From Coriobacteriaceae bacterium EMTCatB1 (GTDB lineage Bacteria; Actinomycetota; Coriobacteriia; Anaerosomatales; Anaerosomataceae): a stretch of 64,000 nt of DNA. Numbering within the stretch: the first letter of the stretch is position 1; each line of letters begins with the position of its first letter. Location: assembly GCA_001950395.1 (NCBI GenBank), contig BDLO01000001.1, forward strand, positions 186,001-250,000, in the 5' to 3' direction. The notes beneath the pieces are model-generated. The model saw only the letters and a program-made list of their open reading frames with translations, did no database searches and was not told the DNA's origin. A program made the translations under genes and the position numbers. Below, piece by piece: positions 9,481 through 62,186 of this stretch.

Positions 9481-9557
9481 CGGGCCGTAGCGCAGCTTGG
9501 TAGCGCACCTGCTTTGGGAGCAGGGGGCCGCCGGTTCGAATCCGGCCGGCCCGACCA
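9481..9557 (+). tRNA. tRNA-Pro (anticodon TGG)
   Basis: Seven-base acceptor stem CGGGCCG/CGGCCCG, D arm with GCGCAGCTTGGTAGCGC, anticodon loop CTTTGGGAG giving TGG, and T loop GGTTCGAATCC. The CCA end is encoded in the genome. Confidence 0.97.
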
Positions 9558-9562
9558 GATAG

Positions 9563-9638
<76 letters not shown>

Positions 9639-9668
9639 TTGACAACGCACGGCCGGCACGGGTACCGT
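9639..9668 (+). promoter_or_regulatory. Internal promoter before tRNA-Arg and tRNA-His
   Basis: A perfect -35 TTGACA at 9639-9644 directly after the CCA of tRNA-Gly, 18 bases, then TACCGT at 9663-9668, about 30 bases before tRNA-Arg. It would let the last two tRNAs be made independently of the first two. Confidence 0.55.
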
Positions 9669-9698
9669 ATGCCCTCGGCGCCCGGGCCGGTTCGATAC

Positions 9699-9775
9699 GC
9701 GCCCGTAGCTCAGCTGGATAGAGCGGGAGACTTCTAATCTCTAGGTCGGGGGTTCGAGTCCCTCCGGGCGTGCCA
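9699..9775 (+). tRNA. tRNA-Arg (anticodon TCT)
   Basis: Acceptor stem GCGCCCG/CGGGCGT with a G-T first pair, D arm AGCTCAGCTGGATAGAGC, anticodon loop CTTCTAA giving TCT, T loop GGTTCGAGTCC, encoded CCA. It reads the AGA/AGG codons, which are rare in the genes here. Confidence 0.96.
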
Positions 9776-9785
9776 ATGCGAACAC

Positions 9786-9863
9786 GGTGGGCGTAGCTCA
9801 GTTGGTCAGAGCGTCGGACTGTGGCTCCGAAGGTCGCGGGTTCGAGTCCCGTTGCCCACCCCA
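9786..9863 (+). tRNA. tRNA-His (anticodon GTG)
   Basis: Acceptor stem GTGGGCG/TGCCCAC with the extra G at position -1 facing the C discriminator, as histidine tRNAs require. Anticodon loop TGTGGCT gives GTG. CCA is encoded. Confidence 0.97.
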
Positions 9864-56575: not shown

Positions 56576-57262
56576 ATGCTCGATCTCGTCCTGGAGCTCG
56601 TGGCTCCACTCAAGTGTGCTGGCTGCGACGAACCCGGCGCCGCGCTGTGCGAGGCGTGCTGGAGCGCGGTCGTGCGGATCGACCCGCTGCGTGCGTGCCC
56701 TCGGTGTGGCGAGCCGCGGCGGCCGGGTGGTCGGCACGCGTGCGCGTGCTCGGATGCTGCGTTCGAGGCTGTCCGATGCTTCGGCGAACTTGCGCCTCCG
56801 CTCTCGTCGGCGATCTCCTTGCACAAGGATCCCGGCGAGCGACGATACGGTCCCATGCTCGGTGCCCTGGCTGCCACGGCGTGCGCGGACTGGGCGGGCT
56901 GGCCGGACGCCGTGGTGCCGGTGCCTCCGACGCGGAGCGCTCGCTTGCGTCGCGGCTACGACCACACCGCGCCGTTGGCGCGTGCTGTCGCCGATCGCCT
57001 CGGGTCGCAGGCAGCGGGGCTCCTCGTGGCGCGCGACCGTGCAGACCAGCGTGCGCTCGACCGGCGTGGCCGTCGCGAGAACGTACGAGACGCTTTCGCC
57101 GTGCGGGTCGGCGTGAGCGTGCCGGCTCGCGTGCTCCTCGTGGACGACGTGATGACGACGGGCGCGACGCTCGACGCCGCTGCGCGGGCGCTCAAGGACA
57201 GCGGCGCGCGTGAGGTTCGAGCTGTCGCCGTAGCGCGAGCGTGCGGGGGTGCTGCCGGCTGA
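56576..57262 (+). CDS. comF: ComF family phosphoribosyltransferase-like protein
   Basis: 228 residues. An N-terminal zinc part with CAGCDEPGAALCEACW and CPRCGEP, then a type I PRTase domain with DAVVPVPPTRSARLRRGYDH and the PRPP loop VLLVDDVMTTGATLDAAA. ComFC proteins support DNA uptake in competent bacteria; their exact reaction is unsettled. A type IV pilus gene at the window start would fit transformation machinery. comFC next to raiA is a conserved pair; here they are split by an RNA gene and a transporter. Confidence 0.93.
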   Translation: MLDLVLELVAPLKCAGCDEPGAALCEACWSAVVRIDPLRACPRCGEPRRPGGRHACACSDAAFEAVRCFGELAPPLSSAISLHKDPGERRYGPMLGALAATACADWAGWPDAVVPVPPTRSARLRRGYDHTAPLARAVADRLGSQAAGLLVARDRADQRALDRRGRRENVRDAFAVRVGVSVPARVLLVDDVMTTGATLDAAARALKDSGAREVRAVAVARACGGAAG

Positions 57263-57274
57263 GCGCTCACCTGG

Positions 57275-57280
57275 TACACT
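57275..57280 (+). promoter_or_regulatory. -10 element for the structured RNA
   Basis: TACACT, ending four bases before the first paired base of the RNA (57285). That distance puts the expected transcript start on the RNA's 5' end. Confidence 0.55.
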
Positions 57281-57284
57281 TCGT

Positions 57285-57521
57285 GGTGCTTCCATCCGGG
57301 TCTGTGGTTGCGGGCGCTTCGGCGCCCTAGTCCAGGGTAGGCGCGGCCGAAAGGACCCACGTAAGCCGGAGGCCATGCCTCCGTGTGAGCATGGCGCGCC
57401 TTAGGGGTAAGTCGCACCGTCCGCTTCGGCGGGCGAGAGGGCCGGTAGTGAGATAGCATCAAGCGGAAGCCCCAGTGCGCGAGTGTGGGGCCAAAGACCA
57501 GGTCAGCCGGATGGAAGCACC
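57285..57521 (+). ncRNA. Large structured non-coding RNA, candidate raiA-motif RNA
   Basis: About 237 nt with no credible open frame. The ends form a perfect 15-base-pair stem: GGTGCTTCCATCCGG (57285-57299) with CCGGATGGAAGCACC (57507-57521). Inside are at least four more hairpins: GGGCGC/GCGCCC with TTCG loop (57312-57327), CGGAGGC/GCCTCCG (57367-57383), CGTCCGC/GCGGGCG with TTCG loop (57418-57435), and GCCCCA/TGGGGC (57469-57491). GGGTC (57298) can also pair with GACCC (57354). The raiA-motif RNA is a known class in Bacillota and Actinomycetota whose gene usually lies between comFC and raiA; size, complexity and place fit. I cannot compare with the published consensus here. Alternative: a long leader of the binding-protein gene that starts 30 bases later. 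Confidence 0.7.
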
Positions 57522-57551: not shown

Positions 57552-58430
57552 ATGAAGAGACACGGCATGCGGTTGCGAGCGGTCGTGGCGGTGGCGGCTG
57601 CCGCGCTGTTGGTCGCGAGCGTCGGTTGCCAGAAGCAACAGGCGGGCCCGGCTCTGAACCCGAAGATCGCACCTCCCGCAATCAAGGAAGCAGGGGTGCT
57701 CAAAGCGGCGGTCGACCCGACGCAGCCCCCGTTCGCCGGCACCGTGGACGGCCAGGTGGTCGGCATGGACGTCGACGTGGCGGCTGCGCTCGCGGAGCGT
57801 CTCGGCTTGAAGCTCGAGCTCGTCAAGATGTCGTGGAGCGACGTCGCTGCTGCGGTGGCGAAGGGCACTGTCGACGTCGGTTTCGCGGCGATTCCGATCA
57901 CGGATGCAGTGCTCGCCAACATATCTGTCGCGGGTTCGTATGCGACCGACGGCATCGGGCTGTTCGGCGTTGTGGCCACGGGCACCGTCGAGGCGACCGG
58001 CACCGTCGGCCCAGAAGAAGCGGCTGCTCTCATGAGCGGGGAACGCGTCGCGTGCCAGAAAGGGTCGGCCGCGCAGTGGTACCTGGAGTCAGAGTACTGG
58101 GAGGGGTTTGCCACGACCTACGAGACGCTTCGCGAGGCGTTCGACGCTCTTGCTGCTGGCGAGGTGGACTACGTGGCGTGCGACGCATTCGTAGGCGCGT
58201 ACCTCGCGCGTGACTACGGCAACGTGCGCTTCGTGGCACCCGTGGGGGAAGCGATGCCGCTCGGCGTGCTCGTCGCGAAAGACTCTACCGAGCTCGCAGC
58301 AAAGGTCCGAGAGACGTTGGACGGGATGGCAACGGACGGCACGCTTGCGACCATCCGGACGAAGTGGGTAGGCGATCTGCCTGAGCTGCGTGTGTACGGA
58401 AGCACGGAGCCGACGGAAGCCGCTCAGTAA
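57552..58430 (+). CDS. Solute-binding lipoprotein, family 3, canonical order but atypical ligand site
   Basis: 292 residues. Signal peptide with lipobox ending in Cys26. The fold order is normal: lobe 1 start GVLKAAVDPTQPPFAG, MDVDVAAALAERLGL, then lobe 2 with ERVACQKGSAAQWYLES, the aspartate Asp211 in VDYVACDAFVG, and the closing helix MATDGTLATIRTKWVG. The arginine that normally binds the amino acid carboxylate (the T-x-E-R motif) is replaced: the site reads ITDAVLANIS with Val120. So it belongs to the polar amino acid family but may bind something else. ATG at 57552 follows GGAGGTG, 30 bases after the RNA. Confidence 0.88.
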   Translation: MKRHGMRLRAVVAVAAAALLVASVGCQKQQAGPALNPKIAPPAIKEAGVLKAAVDPTQPPFAGTVDGQVVGMDVDVAAALAERLGLKLELVKMSWSDVAAAVAKGTVDVGFAAIPITDAVLANISVAGSYATDGIGLFGVVATGTVEATGTVGPEEAAALMSGERVACQKGSAAQWYLESEYWEGFATTYETLREAFDALAAGEVDYVACDAFVGAYLARDYGNVRFVAPVGEAMPLGVLVAKDSTELAAKVRETLDGMATDGTLATIRTKWVGDLPELRVYGSTEPTEAAQ

Positions 58431-58565: not shown

Positions 58566-59435
58566 ATGGGCACGTTCCGCAAGGCGCTCGCACTGCTGGT
58601 TGTGTGCGCGCTGGCGTTGGGCGCTCTCGCGCTCGGCGGTTGCGCGAAGAAGGAGAGCACTGACACCGGCGGCCAGACGGGCGCGCGCGTCATCAAGAGC
58701 GTCGACGACCTCAAGGAAGGCGACAAGGTCGGCGTGCAGTCCGGAACGACGGGTGAGGCTTGGGCGAAGAAGAACCTCGAGCCCAAGGGCGTCCAGGTCG
58801 TTCCGTACGACGACATCTTGCTTGCTTTCCAGGCGCTTCAGGCAGGAGATGTCGTGGGTGTTATCAACGACCTGCCGATCTCGCAGGACATCGTGAAGGA
58901 TGAGGCGCGCGGGCTGGAGATCGTGCAGGAGATCCAGACCGACGAGACCTACGGGTTCGCCTTCAACAAGAACAATCCGACGCTGCGCGATGCGGTGAAC
59001 TGGGCTCTCGCCGAGGTCATCAAGGACGGCACCTATAACGAGATCTACACGAAGTGGTTCGGCTCCGAGCCGATGTCGATGCCGGAAGCCACGAGCGGTG
59101 TGACTGAGAAGCCAGCCGGCGAGATCAAGACCCTCACTCCTGGCAAGATCATCGTCGGTTCCGACACTGCGTTCCCGCCCTTCGAGAACGTCGAGAACGG
59201 CGAAGTCGTGGGCTTCGACGTCGACCTCATGAAGGCGATCGGCGAGAAGCTCGGCATGACCGTCGAGTTCAAGAGCTACAAGTTCGACGCGCTCATCACC
59301 GGTCTGCAGGCCGGCACCGAGTTCGACATGGTCGCATCAGCCATGACCATCACAGACGAGCGCAAGCAGTCCGTGGACTTCTCCGATCCGTACATCAATT
59401 CCAACCAGTCTCTTGCGGTTCGCAAGGCACAGTAG
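58566..59435 (+). CDS. Circularly permuted polar amino acid-binding lipoprotein (SBP family 3)
   Basis: 289 residues. Signal peptide with lipobox ending in Cys26. The family's second half comes first: DDLKEGDKVGVQSGTTGEAW (47-66), ALQAGDVVGVINDLPIS with Asp102, and the terminal helix DGTYNEIYTKWFG (154-166). A linker of about 25 residues follows, and then the family's first half: GKIIVGSDTAFPPFE (193-207), VVGFDVDLMKAIGEKLGM, ALITGLQAGTEFDMVA, MTITDERKQSVDFSDPY (260-276, Arg266 intact) and NQSLAVRKA, ending at 289. All ligand residues seem present. The order is a circular permutation with new ends at the hinge between lobes. GGAGG precedes the ATG. Confidence 0.93.
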   Translation: MGTFRKALALLVVCALALGALALGGCAKKESTDTGGQTGARVIKSVDDLKEGDKVGVQSGTTGEAWAKKNLEPKGVQVVPYDDILLAFQALQAGDVVGVINDLPISQDIVKDEARGLEIVQEIQTDETYGFAFNKNNPTLRDAVNWALAEVIKDGTYNEIYTKWFGSEPMSMPEATSGVTEKPAGEIKTLTPGKIIVGSDTAFPPFENVENGEVVGFDVDLMKAIGEKLGMTVEFKSYKFDALITGLQAGTEFDMVASAMTITDERKQSVDFSDPYINSNQSLAVRKAQ

Positions 59436-59536
59436 CGCTGCAACGGGAAGATCGACCGTGGTCGCAGGGTCGGCGAGCGTACCTCGCCGGCCCTGCGGTA
59501 TGATGCGGCGCAAGGCTCTGCGTGAGGAGGACGTCT

Positions 59537-60790
59537 GTGCGGCGGGAAGTGCGTAATCGCATCGTCCAGGTGGTGTATGCGGCGCTGGGCATAGCACTGC
59601 TGGCTGCATTGCTCACGATGACCGGGCCTGATCGGCTGGTCTACGACCACCCGGCTCCTCGGGGCCAGAAGGGCATGGTTCACGACACCTTCCCGATCCC
59701 GCCCGTGCTCGACACAGTCACCATCGCGAAGCAGAACGCGAATGTGGTCTTGCCGCAGGCGGAGCTCGCTCCTGGCAGCGTCGTTCGATTGAAGAGGCAA
59801 CCCGCGGGGGGCGGTATGGCCTCCTCATCGTGGGTAGTCGAGTCAGCTGAGACGTCGCCCTCACCCGTGTTGCTCAACGGGCAGCCTGTGTCGGGAACGC
59901 CAACGCTCTCTGACGGGGACGTGCTGACGATCGGCGGCGTGCCCGTCACGTTCGAGTCTGGGCGCCGCGGCATCCTCGGCGCTCTCGACTGGTGGGAGAC
60001 CGGCAAGGTGTCGCACCTGTTCGCGTCACCGAAAGTCGTCGCTCAGGCCTTCCCTCACGTTCTCAAGGCATTTCCGGTCTCACTCTTGTGCGTCCTGGTG
60101 GCGTACTCGCTCGCGATACCCGGGGGCCTGACGCTCGCGTTCATGAAGATGGCGCGCTCAGCGTGGTTCCGCTGGCCGTCGACCGCGTACATCGACTTCA
60201 TCCGTGGAACGCCGCTGTTTCTGCAGATCCTGATCGTCTTCTTCGGGCTGCCGCTGCTCCCGCCGTGGCAGGCCCTGCTGGCTGCGTTTCCGGGGCTCAA
60301 TGAGCCCGGTCCCTTCGGCCCGACGTACTCGCTGTACCTGCGCGCCTTCGTGGTGCTGTCGTTCAACTCGGCTGCGTACATGGCGGAGATCTTCCGTGCC
60401 GGCATCCAGTCGATCAGCAAGGGGCAGATGGAGGCGGCGCGCTCGCTCGGCATGACGACTGCGCAAGCGATGACCTTCGTCATCATCCCGCAGACGGTTC
60501 GACGCATCCTGCCGACGATGATGTCCGAGTTCATCCTGCTGTTCAAAGACACGTCGCTCTTCGCGGCGGTCGGCATGGGCGAGATGGTCATGCGAGCGCG
60601 CGAAGTCGCTGCTTCGAGCTACAACGTGTCGCCGTACCTGCTCGCGGCCGTCTTCTACCTCGTGGTGACCATCCCGCTCGGTCGCGTGGTGCACCGGCTC
60701 GAGAACCGGCTGGCGCAATCTGAGGGCGGCGCGATCTCGGTCTCGGAGGCGCGGCCGACCATCGATTCTGAGCACGCGATCGCGGTGTGA
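59537..60790 (+). CDS. Amino acid ABC transporter permease with an extra FHA-like extracytoplasmic domain
   Basis: 417 residues; usual HisM/GlnP permeases have about 220. One helix (about 8-28) is followed by about 145 exported residues. In these, about 58-142 look like a beta-sandwich of FHA type, ending VLLNGQPVSG, LSDGDVLTIGGVPVTFE. The FHA phosphothreonine residues (G-R and S-x-x-H) are missing. The normal permease part starts near 170 (VLKAFPVSLLCVLVAYSLA), with YIDFIRGTPLFLQILIVFFG and the EAA loop AARSLGMTTAQAMTFVIIPQ. GTG at 59537 follows GGAGG; an upstream GTG at 59522 is weaker. Confidence 0.9.
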   Translation: MRREVRNRIVQVVYAALGIALLAALLTMTGPDRLVYDHPAPRGQKGMVHDTFPIPPVLDTVTIAKQNANVVLPQAELAPGSVVRLKRQPAGGGMASSSWVVESAETSPSPVLLNGQPVSGTPTLSDGDVLTIGGVPVTFESGRRGILGALDWWETGKVSHLFASPKVVAQAFPHVLKAFPVSLLCVLVAYSLAIPGGLTLAFMKMARSAWFRWPSTAYIDFIRGTPLFLQILIVFFGLPLLPPWQALLAAFPGLNEPGPFGPTYSLYLRAFVVLSFNSAAYMAEIFRAGIQSISKGQMEAARSLGMTTAQAMTFVIIPQTVRRILPTMMSEFILLFKDTSLFAAVGMGEMVMRAREVAASSYNVSPYLLAAVFYLVVTIPLGRVVHRLENRLAQSEGGAISVSEARPTIDSEHAIAV

Positions 60791-60802: not shown

Positions 60803-61546
60803 ATGGACAGCAACAGCGAGCCGATCGTCCGCATCAAAGGGCTGCGCAAGCGTTTCGGCGACCTCGAGGTCCTGCGCGGCGTGGACATGGACGTGCGCAA
60901 GGGCGAGGTCGTGGTGATCCTGGGGCCGTCCGGTTCGGGCAAGTCGACGCTCCTGCGGTGCGTGAACCGGCTTGAGGAGCCCACGGGCGGCGAGGTGTGG
61001 TTCGAGGACACGCTCGTCAACAGCCCCAAGACGGACATCAACGCTGTGCGCGAGAAGATCGGGATGGTATTCCAGAGCTTCAACCTCTTCCCGCACCTCA
61101 CCGCAAGGGGAAACGTGATGCTCGCGCAGCGCAAGGTGCTTAAGCGCTCGAAAGAGGAGGCCGAGCGTATCGCGATCGAGCAGCTGACGCGCGTCGGGCT
61201 CGCCGACCGCATCGACTACTACCCCGCTCAGCTTTCGGGCGGCCAGCAGCAGCGCGTCGCGATCGCGCGAGCGCTCGCGATGGATCCGCACGTCATGCTG
61301 TTCGACGAAGTCACCTCGGCGCTGGATCCCGAGCTCGTGCGCGGCGTGCTCGACGTCATGAAGCAGCTGGCTCTCGGCGGCATGACGATGCTCGTCGTGA
61401 CGCACGAGATGGGCTTCGCCCGCGACGTCGCCGACCGCGTCGTGTTCATGGACGGCGGCGTGATCGTCGAAGAGGGGCTGCCGGAAGAGGTGTTCGACAA
61501 CCCCAAGCACGAGCGGACCAAGGACTTCTTGGGGCACATCAGCTAG
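60803..61546 (+). CDS. Polar amino acid ABC transporter ATP-binding protein (GlnQ/HisP family)
   Basis: 247 residues. Walker [17 protein letters not shown] loop [12 protein letters not shown], signature [17 protein letters not shown], Walker [15 protein letters not shown] and switch histidine [11 protein letters not shown], all intact. N-terminal [19 protein letters not shown]. It would drive the permease before it, 12 bases away, as a homodimer. Last gene of the transporter operon. Confidence 0.96.
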
Positions 61547-61649: not shown

Positions 61650-62186
61650 ATGAGCACAGTCGTGAAGGGTCGCCACATGGACGTCACGCCGGCTCTCCGC
61701 GAGTACGCGGAGGAGAAGATCGGCAAGGTCGCGAAGCTCCTGAACGATCACATGGTGACCAGCGTAGAGATCGAGCTGAGCGCCGAGCGCAACCCGGCTA
61801 TCGAGAAGAAGCATGTGGCAGAGGTCACGATGCACACGAAGGGTCACGTCATCCGCGCCAAGGAGGCGGCGACGGACATGTACGCCGCCATCGACCTGGT
61901 CTCCGAGAAGCTCGAACGGCAGGTGCAGAAGCTGAGGACCAAGCTGCAGAACCGCCACAAGGCCGCTGCGCCGGTTGCGGCGGAGCCCGAACCTGCAGAG
62001 GAGCGCGAGCCGAGCATCGTGAAGCGGAAGGTCATCGAGGTCAAGCCGATGGCACCCGAAGAGGCGGCGCTTCAGATGGAGTTGCTCGGGCACGACTTCT
62101 TCGTGTTCGCCTCGGCGGAAAGCGAGACCATCAACGTGCTGTACCGCAGGAGCGACGGGGACTACGGCCTGATCATCCCGCGGTAG
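61650..62186 (+). CDS. raiA: Ribosome hibernation promoting factor, long form (RaiA/HPF)
   Basis: 178 residues. N-terminal domain (1-100: VKGRHMDVTPALREYAEEKI, VEIELSAERNP, ATDMYAAIDLVSEKLERQVQ) binds the 30S subunit at the mRNA/tRNA path; a charged linker; C-terminal domain (about 125-178, KPMAPEEAALQMELLGHDFF, INVLYRRSDGDYGLIIPR) that pairs ribosomes into 100S dimers. ATG at 61650 follows AGGAGGT. TATCTT near 61613 may be its own promoter. A terminator follows, and secA, the usual next gene, is not here. Confidence 0.96.
   Translation: MSTVVKGRHMDVTPALREYAEEKIGKVAKLLNDHMVTSVEIELSAERNPAIEKKHVAEVTMHTKGHVIRAKEAATDMYAAIDLVSEKLERQVQKLRTKLQNRHKAAAPVAAEPEPAEEREPSIVKRKVIEVKPMAPEEAALQMELLGHDFFVFASAESETINVLYRRSDGDYGLIIPR

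Follow-up and report, generated by a model that had tools for sequence, protein, structure and literature searches.

A complete raiA/ModT RNA and its solute-binding-protein neighbour in the Coriobacteriia

The 64-kb window (the whole stretch of DNA that we analysed) carries a noncoding RNA of the known raiA/ModT family, and this copy is both genuine and complete. The Rfam covariance model for raiA, RF03072, matches positions 57291–57515 of the plus strand over its full length (model positions 1–209 of 209) with an E value of 6.6e-41 and a score of 162.7 bits, exceeding the gathering score of 101.3 bits by 61 bits. The RNA lies in a 237-nt region that had been described as free of genes, and indeed no separate gene is apparent in it: comFC stops at 57262, and the nearest downstream start codon with a ribosome-binding site is at 57552. 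It occurs once in the whole 1,838,614-bp genome and, in an alignment of 188 sequences, deviates at none of the 75 columns that are conserved at 95% or more (75/75). A literature search found no publication on raiA RNA in the Coriobacteriia, and we regard the RNA as a new, well-supported member of the family. Its host, as anticipated, belongs to a deep actinobacterial lineage (Anaerosomatales, class Coriobacteriia).

Identity and structure of the RNA

The original prediction had proposed a raiA-motif RNA as the probable identity of this region, and the full-length Rfam match together with compensatory changes in the stems and in the pseudoknot pk1 bears this out. Long terminal stems also occur in SRP, 6S, RNase P and tmRNA, but besides four tRNAs raiA was the sole Rfam match in a scan of the window, the models of those four RNAs gave no match there, and pk1 and the P1–P7 architecture are those of raiA. 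The Rfam scan and the 188-sequence structure comparison thus refute another structured RNA of this kind or a mere structured untranslated region, and we give such an identity next to no credence. The four tRNA genes are clustered on the plus strand at 9481–9860.

The predicted fold has the P1–P8 core with pk1 and pk2 (Table 1). Folding of the 237-nt strand gave −118.7 kcal/mol against −103.1 kcal/mol for dinucleotide shuffles (z = −3.2), and none of the 200 shuffles folded as well. For a covariation test, 188 distinct RNAs of the phylum were aligned without structure information. In this set P1, P2, P3, P6, P7 and pk1 covary well above shuffled alignments. P1a was paired in 94.6% of cells, with changes on both sides in 10 of its 12 pairs; such two-sided cells numbered 524 in P1a (at most 194 in shuffles) and 219 in pk1 (at most 76), where the shuffle controls ignore the kinship of the sequences and the counts are to be read as support, not as a probability. 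The seven pairs of pk1 were formed in 96.2% of cells versus 80.3% in shuffles, four of them with two-sided changes. Pairing reached 99.1% in P3a (two-sided changes in 4/4 pairs), 100% in P3b (1/3), 100% in P6 (3/4) and 85.3% in P7 (7/7). When the partner strand was slid by one or two columns, pairing in P1a, P2, P3, pk1, P6 and P7 fell to 4–60%. The 2-bp pk2 (UG/CA in the window) is 95.7% paired overall and is nearly invariant, so that covariation is uninformative for it. P5 could not be aligned across the whole set (56.8% paired); within the Anaerosomatales it was paired in 89% of cells, compared with 70% after shuffling.

Several hairpins had been recognized correctly from the letters alone. 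The perfect 15-bp terminal stem is present (57285–57299 with 57507–57521), and the two hairpins with TTCG loops, at 57312–57327 and 57418–57435, are P2 and P7 with UUCG loops. Within the 15-bp stem P1a covaries, and the outer 6 bp differ from one family member to another (67.6% paired versus 47.4% in shuffles). Because of this variability, we read the length of the stem as a local lengthening of P1 that is nothing out of the ordinary; runs of 12–17 bp are typical among genomes of the window's family.

Table 1. Positions of the RNA, its helices and the neighbouring genes in the window
Feature	Position	Strand	Basis or remarks
comFC (phosphoribosyltransferase), upstream neighbour	56576–57262	+	PF00156, PF18912
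Extended −10 element TGG-TACACT, TGGTACACT	57272–57280	+	Transcription start expected at about 57286–57288
raiA motif (ModT) RNA, including outer extension of P1	57285–57521	+	RF03072; Rfam core 57291–57515
P1, 5′ strand	57285–57309	+	Outer 57285–57290; P1a 57291–57304; P1b 57305–57309
P2 hairpin, UUCG loop	57312–57327	+	96.0% paired versus 55% shuffled; two-sided changes in 6/6 pairs
P3	57330–57356	+	P3a 57330–57333/57353–57356; P3b 57336–57338/57346–57348; loop carries 5′ half of pk1
pk1, 5′ half, AGGCGCG	57339–57345	+	Partner CGCGCCU at 57395–57401
P5 hairpin, variable stem	57368–57382	+	Covaries within Anaerosomatales
pk1, 3′ half, CGCGCCU	57395–57401	+	In pk-loop between P5 and P6
P6	57414–57478	+	Strands 57414–57417/57475–57478; encloses P7 (57418–57435) and P8
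P1b, P1a and outer extension, 3′ strands	57496–57521	+	188-sequence alignment
Family-3 solute-binding lipoprotein	57552–58430	+	PF00497, E 3.5e-25; start 30 nt after 3′ end of P1
Second, circularly permuted solute-binding protein	58566–59435	+	Pfam; permutation by alignment
Permease	59522–60790	+	Pfam
ATPase	60803–61546	+	Pfam
raiA/hpf gene (long ribosome hibernation factor)	61653–62186	+	PF02482, PF16321

Like the raiA/ModT RNAs of Clostridium acetobutylicum and Clostridioides difficile, the RNA of the window matches the complete model, with the same helices and all conserved positions, and has comFC upstream and a putative promoter of its own at the 5′ edge. In the C. acetobutylicum cryo-EM structure (PMC11751092) pk1 has a counterpart and pk2 a candidate one, both matched by sequence position and not by structure coordinates. 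Unlike C. difficile ModT, which is without P2, it has this hairpin.

Promoter, downstream end and gene neighbourhood

A −10 box had been noted at the 5′ edge, and TACACT indeed lies at 57275–57280, 4 nt ahead of 57285. Comparison of loci shows that this extended −10 element at the base of P1 is conserved class-wide. Across 187 loci, TAnnnT boxes peak at 14–18 nt ahead of the RNA and are nearly missing from a control region, and the form TGnTA[CT]ACT is found in 18 of 18 genomes of the window's family. A scan of the window with the sigma-70 consensus found no promoter, because the −35 element is poor, and it took the comparison of loci to reveal the extended −10. In the Coriobacteriia the outermost nucleotide of P1 is mostly 10–13 nt past the first base of the −10, so that P1 begins at the expected transcription start. 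The conserved −10 and its spacing to P1 thus point to an RNA with its own promoter and a 5′ end that begins at P1.

At the other end, unlike the clostridial RNA, the RNA of the window lacks an intrinsic terminator after P1: no U-tract terminator follows it, and a terminator-like site within 160 nt of the RNA was found at only 4 of 106 Coriobacteriia loci. P1 ends 17 nt ahead of the ribosome-binding site of the next gene and does not cover it, and no obvious riboswitch expression platform (a terminator, or P1 over the ribosome-binding site) was seen in the window. With a promoter of its own, a solute-binding-protein (SBP) gene within about 35 nt and almost no terminators, the SBP mRNA made from this promoter would contain the RNA. 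Judged from these arrangements, the SBP mRNA probably starts with raiA RNA, the two sharing one transcript. The original prediction had named a leader that continues into the binding-protein mRNA as its alternative, and a shared transcript leaves room for it. We infer that a discrete, free RNA would be released by 3′ processing or by non-intrinsic termination near the base of P1; RNase III cleavage at P1 was considered as a candidate processing step.

The original prediction had placed the RNA after comF and before raiA. Its first half stands, with comFC directly upstream; its second half needs correcting, as hpf, the raiA gene, starts 4.1 kb downstream (61653) behind a four-gene ABC-transporter operon. 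The order assigned with Pfam is comFC, RNA, SBP, permuted SBP, permease, ATPase and hpf/raiA, so that the synteny typical of raiA RNAs, which is usual but not defining, is kept in having comFC directly upstream, with hpf behind the ABC operon. In clostridia, by contrast, the downstream gene is raiA/hpf or a PTS antiterminator. The actinobacterial loci outside the Coriobacteriia (83) carry the same RNA, always in single copy, with comFC upstream in 67/83 and hpf within 700 nt downstream in 52/83. At none of them (0/83) does a family-3 SBP gene follow the RNA directly, whereas an SBP_bac_3-like gene does so at 99 of 106 Coriobacteriia loci. With start codons assigned by a simple rule based on ribosome sites, the median distance from the RNA to the start of this gene is 35 nt there, and in 79 of 99 cases the distance is no more than 50 nt. 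RNA without an SBP was found in four genomes of one Coriobacteriia family (f2). Within the class, hpf lies less than 2.2 kb from the RNA only in f2 and one other family (f4), and comFC is inverted at 19 of 106 loci while the SBP stays beside the RNA. That the motif often precedes genes for periplasmic binding proteins has been reviewed (PMC11477304); the association is therefore known in kind, and the class-wide counts and spacing are new here.

The SBP that follows the RNA in the window is nearest to amino-acid SBPs (AncQR, 4zv1, E = 6e-22). In amino-acid SBPs an Arg holds the ligand carboxylate and an Asp holds the amino group. Of the 99 RNA-adjacent SBPs, 89 lack the Arg in the aligned region and 86 keep the Asp, a pattern that suggests a ligand outside the standard amino acids. 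The second SBP gene of the window encodes a circular permutant of SBP_bac_3, its residues 193–288 corresponding to AncQR 10–105 and its residues 41–166 to AncQR 107–232; a single-sequence AlphaFold model of it had a pLDDT of 44. At the same place in other Anaerosomatales, permuted and normal orders both occur, and a single family can contain the two. Near the RNA-adjacent SBPs examined outside the Anaerosomatales, no permease homologous to that of the window was detected.

Distribution and probable role

The RNA is present in 149 of 159 Coriobacteriia genomes and in 129 of the 132 of good quality. Only one genome (G387) has two matches (C201:4141–4380 and C208:1641–1884); it shows 5% contamination in about 260 contigs and is probably a mixed assembly. 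The link to sporulation in Clostridium, which the original prediction had mentioned, does not carry over to this class. In C. difficile, ModT is abundant and trans-acting, and cells that have lost it contain more c-di-GMP and sporulate less (PMC11706538). Unlike in clostridia, no Spo0A was found in any of the 159 Coriobacteriia genomes, and cultivated members of the host's order are described as non-spore-forming, Parvivirga hydrogeniphila among them (PMC9686372). GGDEF domains are absent from 32 of the 132 good genomes, and all 32 carry the RNA, because the three good genomes without it (G326, G367 and G369) all have GGDEF domains. The window's own 1.84-Mb genome has 12 such domains, in a class that ranges from 0 to over 20. 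Since the RNA is kept without Spo0A and in every GGDEF-free genome, sporulation and c-di-GMP cannot, on gene content, be its conserved target. The clostridial effects more likely follow, locally, from a broader role of the RNA in the exit from growth.

We consider it probable that raiA/ModT is a trans-acting housekeeping RNA with its own promoter that, in this lineage, is co-transcribed with a transport operon. Its transcription would start from the extended −10 promoter where comFC ends, and in the Coriobacteriia the same transcription would continue into the binding-protein/ABC operon. The abundant RNA would most likely act in trans and help cells out of fast growth, probably by way of a protein that binds it. 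The clostridial homologues have been shown to be highly abundant and to act in trans (PMC11706538). Its single copy and its presence in 129 of the 132 good genomes resemble a housekeeping gene, and its retention where comFC is inverted (19/106) or hpf is not nearby is as expected of an independent RNA gene. Against this reading stands the SBP gene that follows at about 35 nt in 99 of the 106 loci, an arrangement that a cis-acting leader would show as well.

How the SBP came to be tied to the RNA admits several readings. The linkage may be passive, the SBP using the strong promoter of the RNA by read-through without a regulatory link, which is compatible with a trans-acting RNA and which we slightly favour. 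The promoter ahead of the RNA is conserved and the 30 nt between RNA and SBP leave no room for a separate SBP promoter, yet the pair is conserved across orders while other neighbours were rearranged, which suggests selection on the linkage. It is unlikely, in our judgement, that the RNA of the Coriobacteriia retains or has recovered a function in cis as a riboswitch-like or stabilizing 5′ leader of the SBP (ABC) operon, perhaps in addition to action in trans. Rfam does list RF03072 under the type 'Cis-reg; riboswitch', and the direct linkage to the SBP, seen within this class and not at the 83 other loci, at a short median distance and with few terminator-like sites, outlasts both the loss of a nearby hpf and the inversion of comFC. 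In other taxa, however, the genes that follow the RNA are unrelated ones, many of them hundreds of nucleotides away or in opposite orientation (PMC11477304); complementation in trans works in clostridia (PMC11706538); the four f2 genomes keep the RNA without the SBP; and in the window P1 stops short of the ribosome-binding site with no obvious expression platform. A dual function, in which one RNA both acts in trans and forms the obligate 5′ leader of a specialized SBP whose ligand or expression is tied to the RNA, we hold to be quite unlikely; if true, the SBP would be a lead to the signal or partner that has long been sought for the raiA family.

To our knowledge, few bacterial RNAs that lack a known biochemical function are as widespread as raiA/ModT. 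The window holds an ordinary copy, whose relatives constrain what the function of the family can be. The class-wide pairing with a lipoprotein SBP singles out a specific neighbouring gene for experiments, and the core function of raiA RNA may be studied in hosts among the GGDEF-free species.
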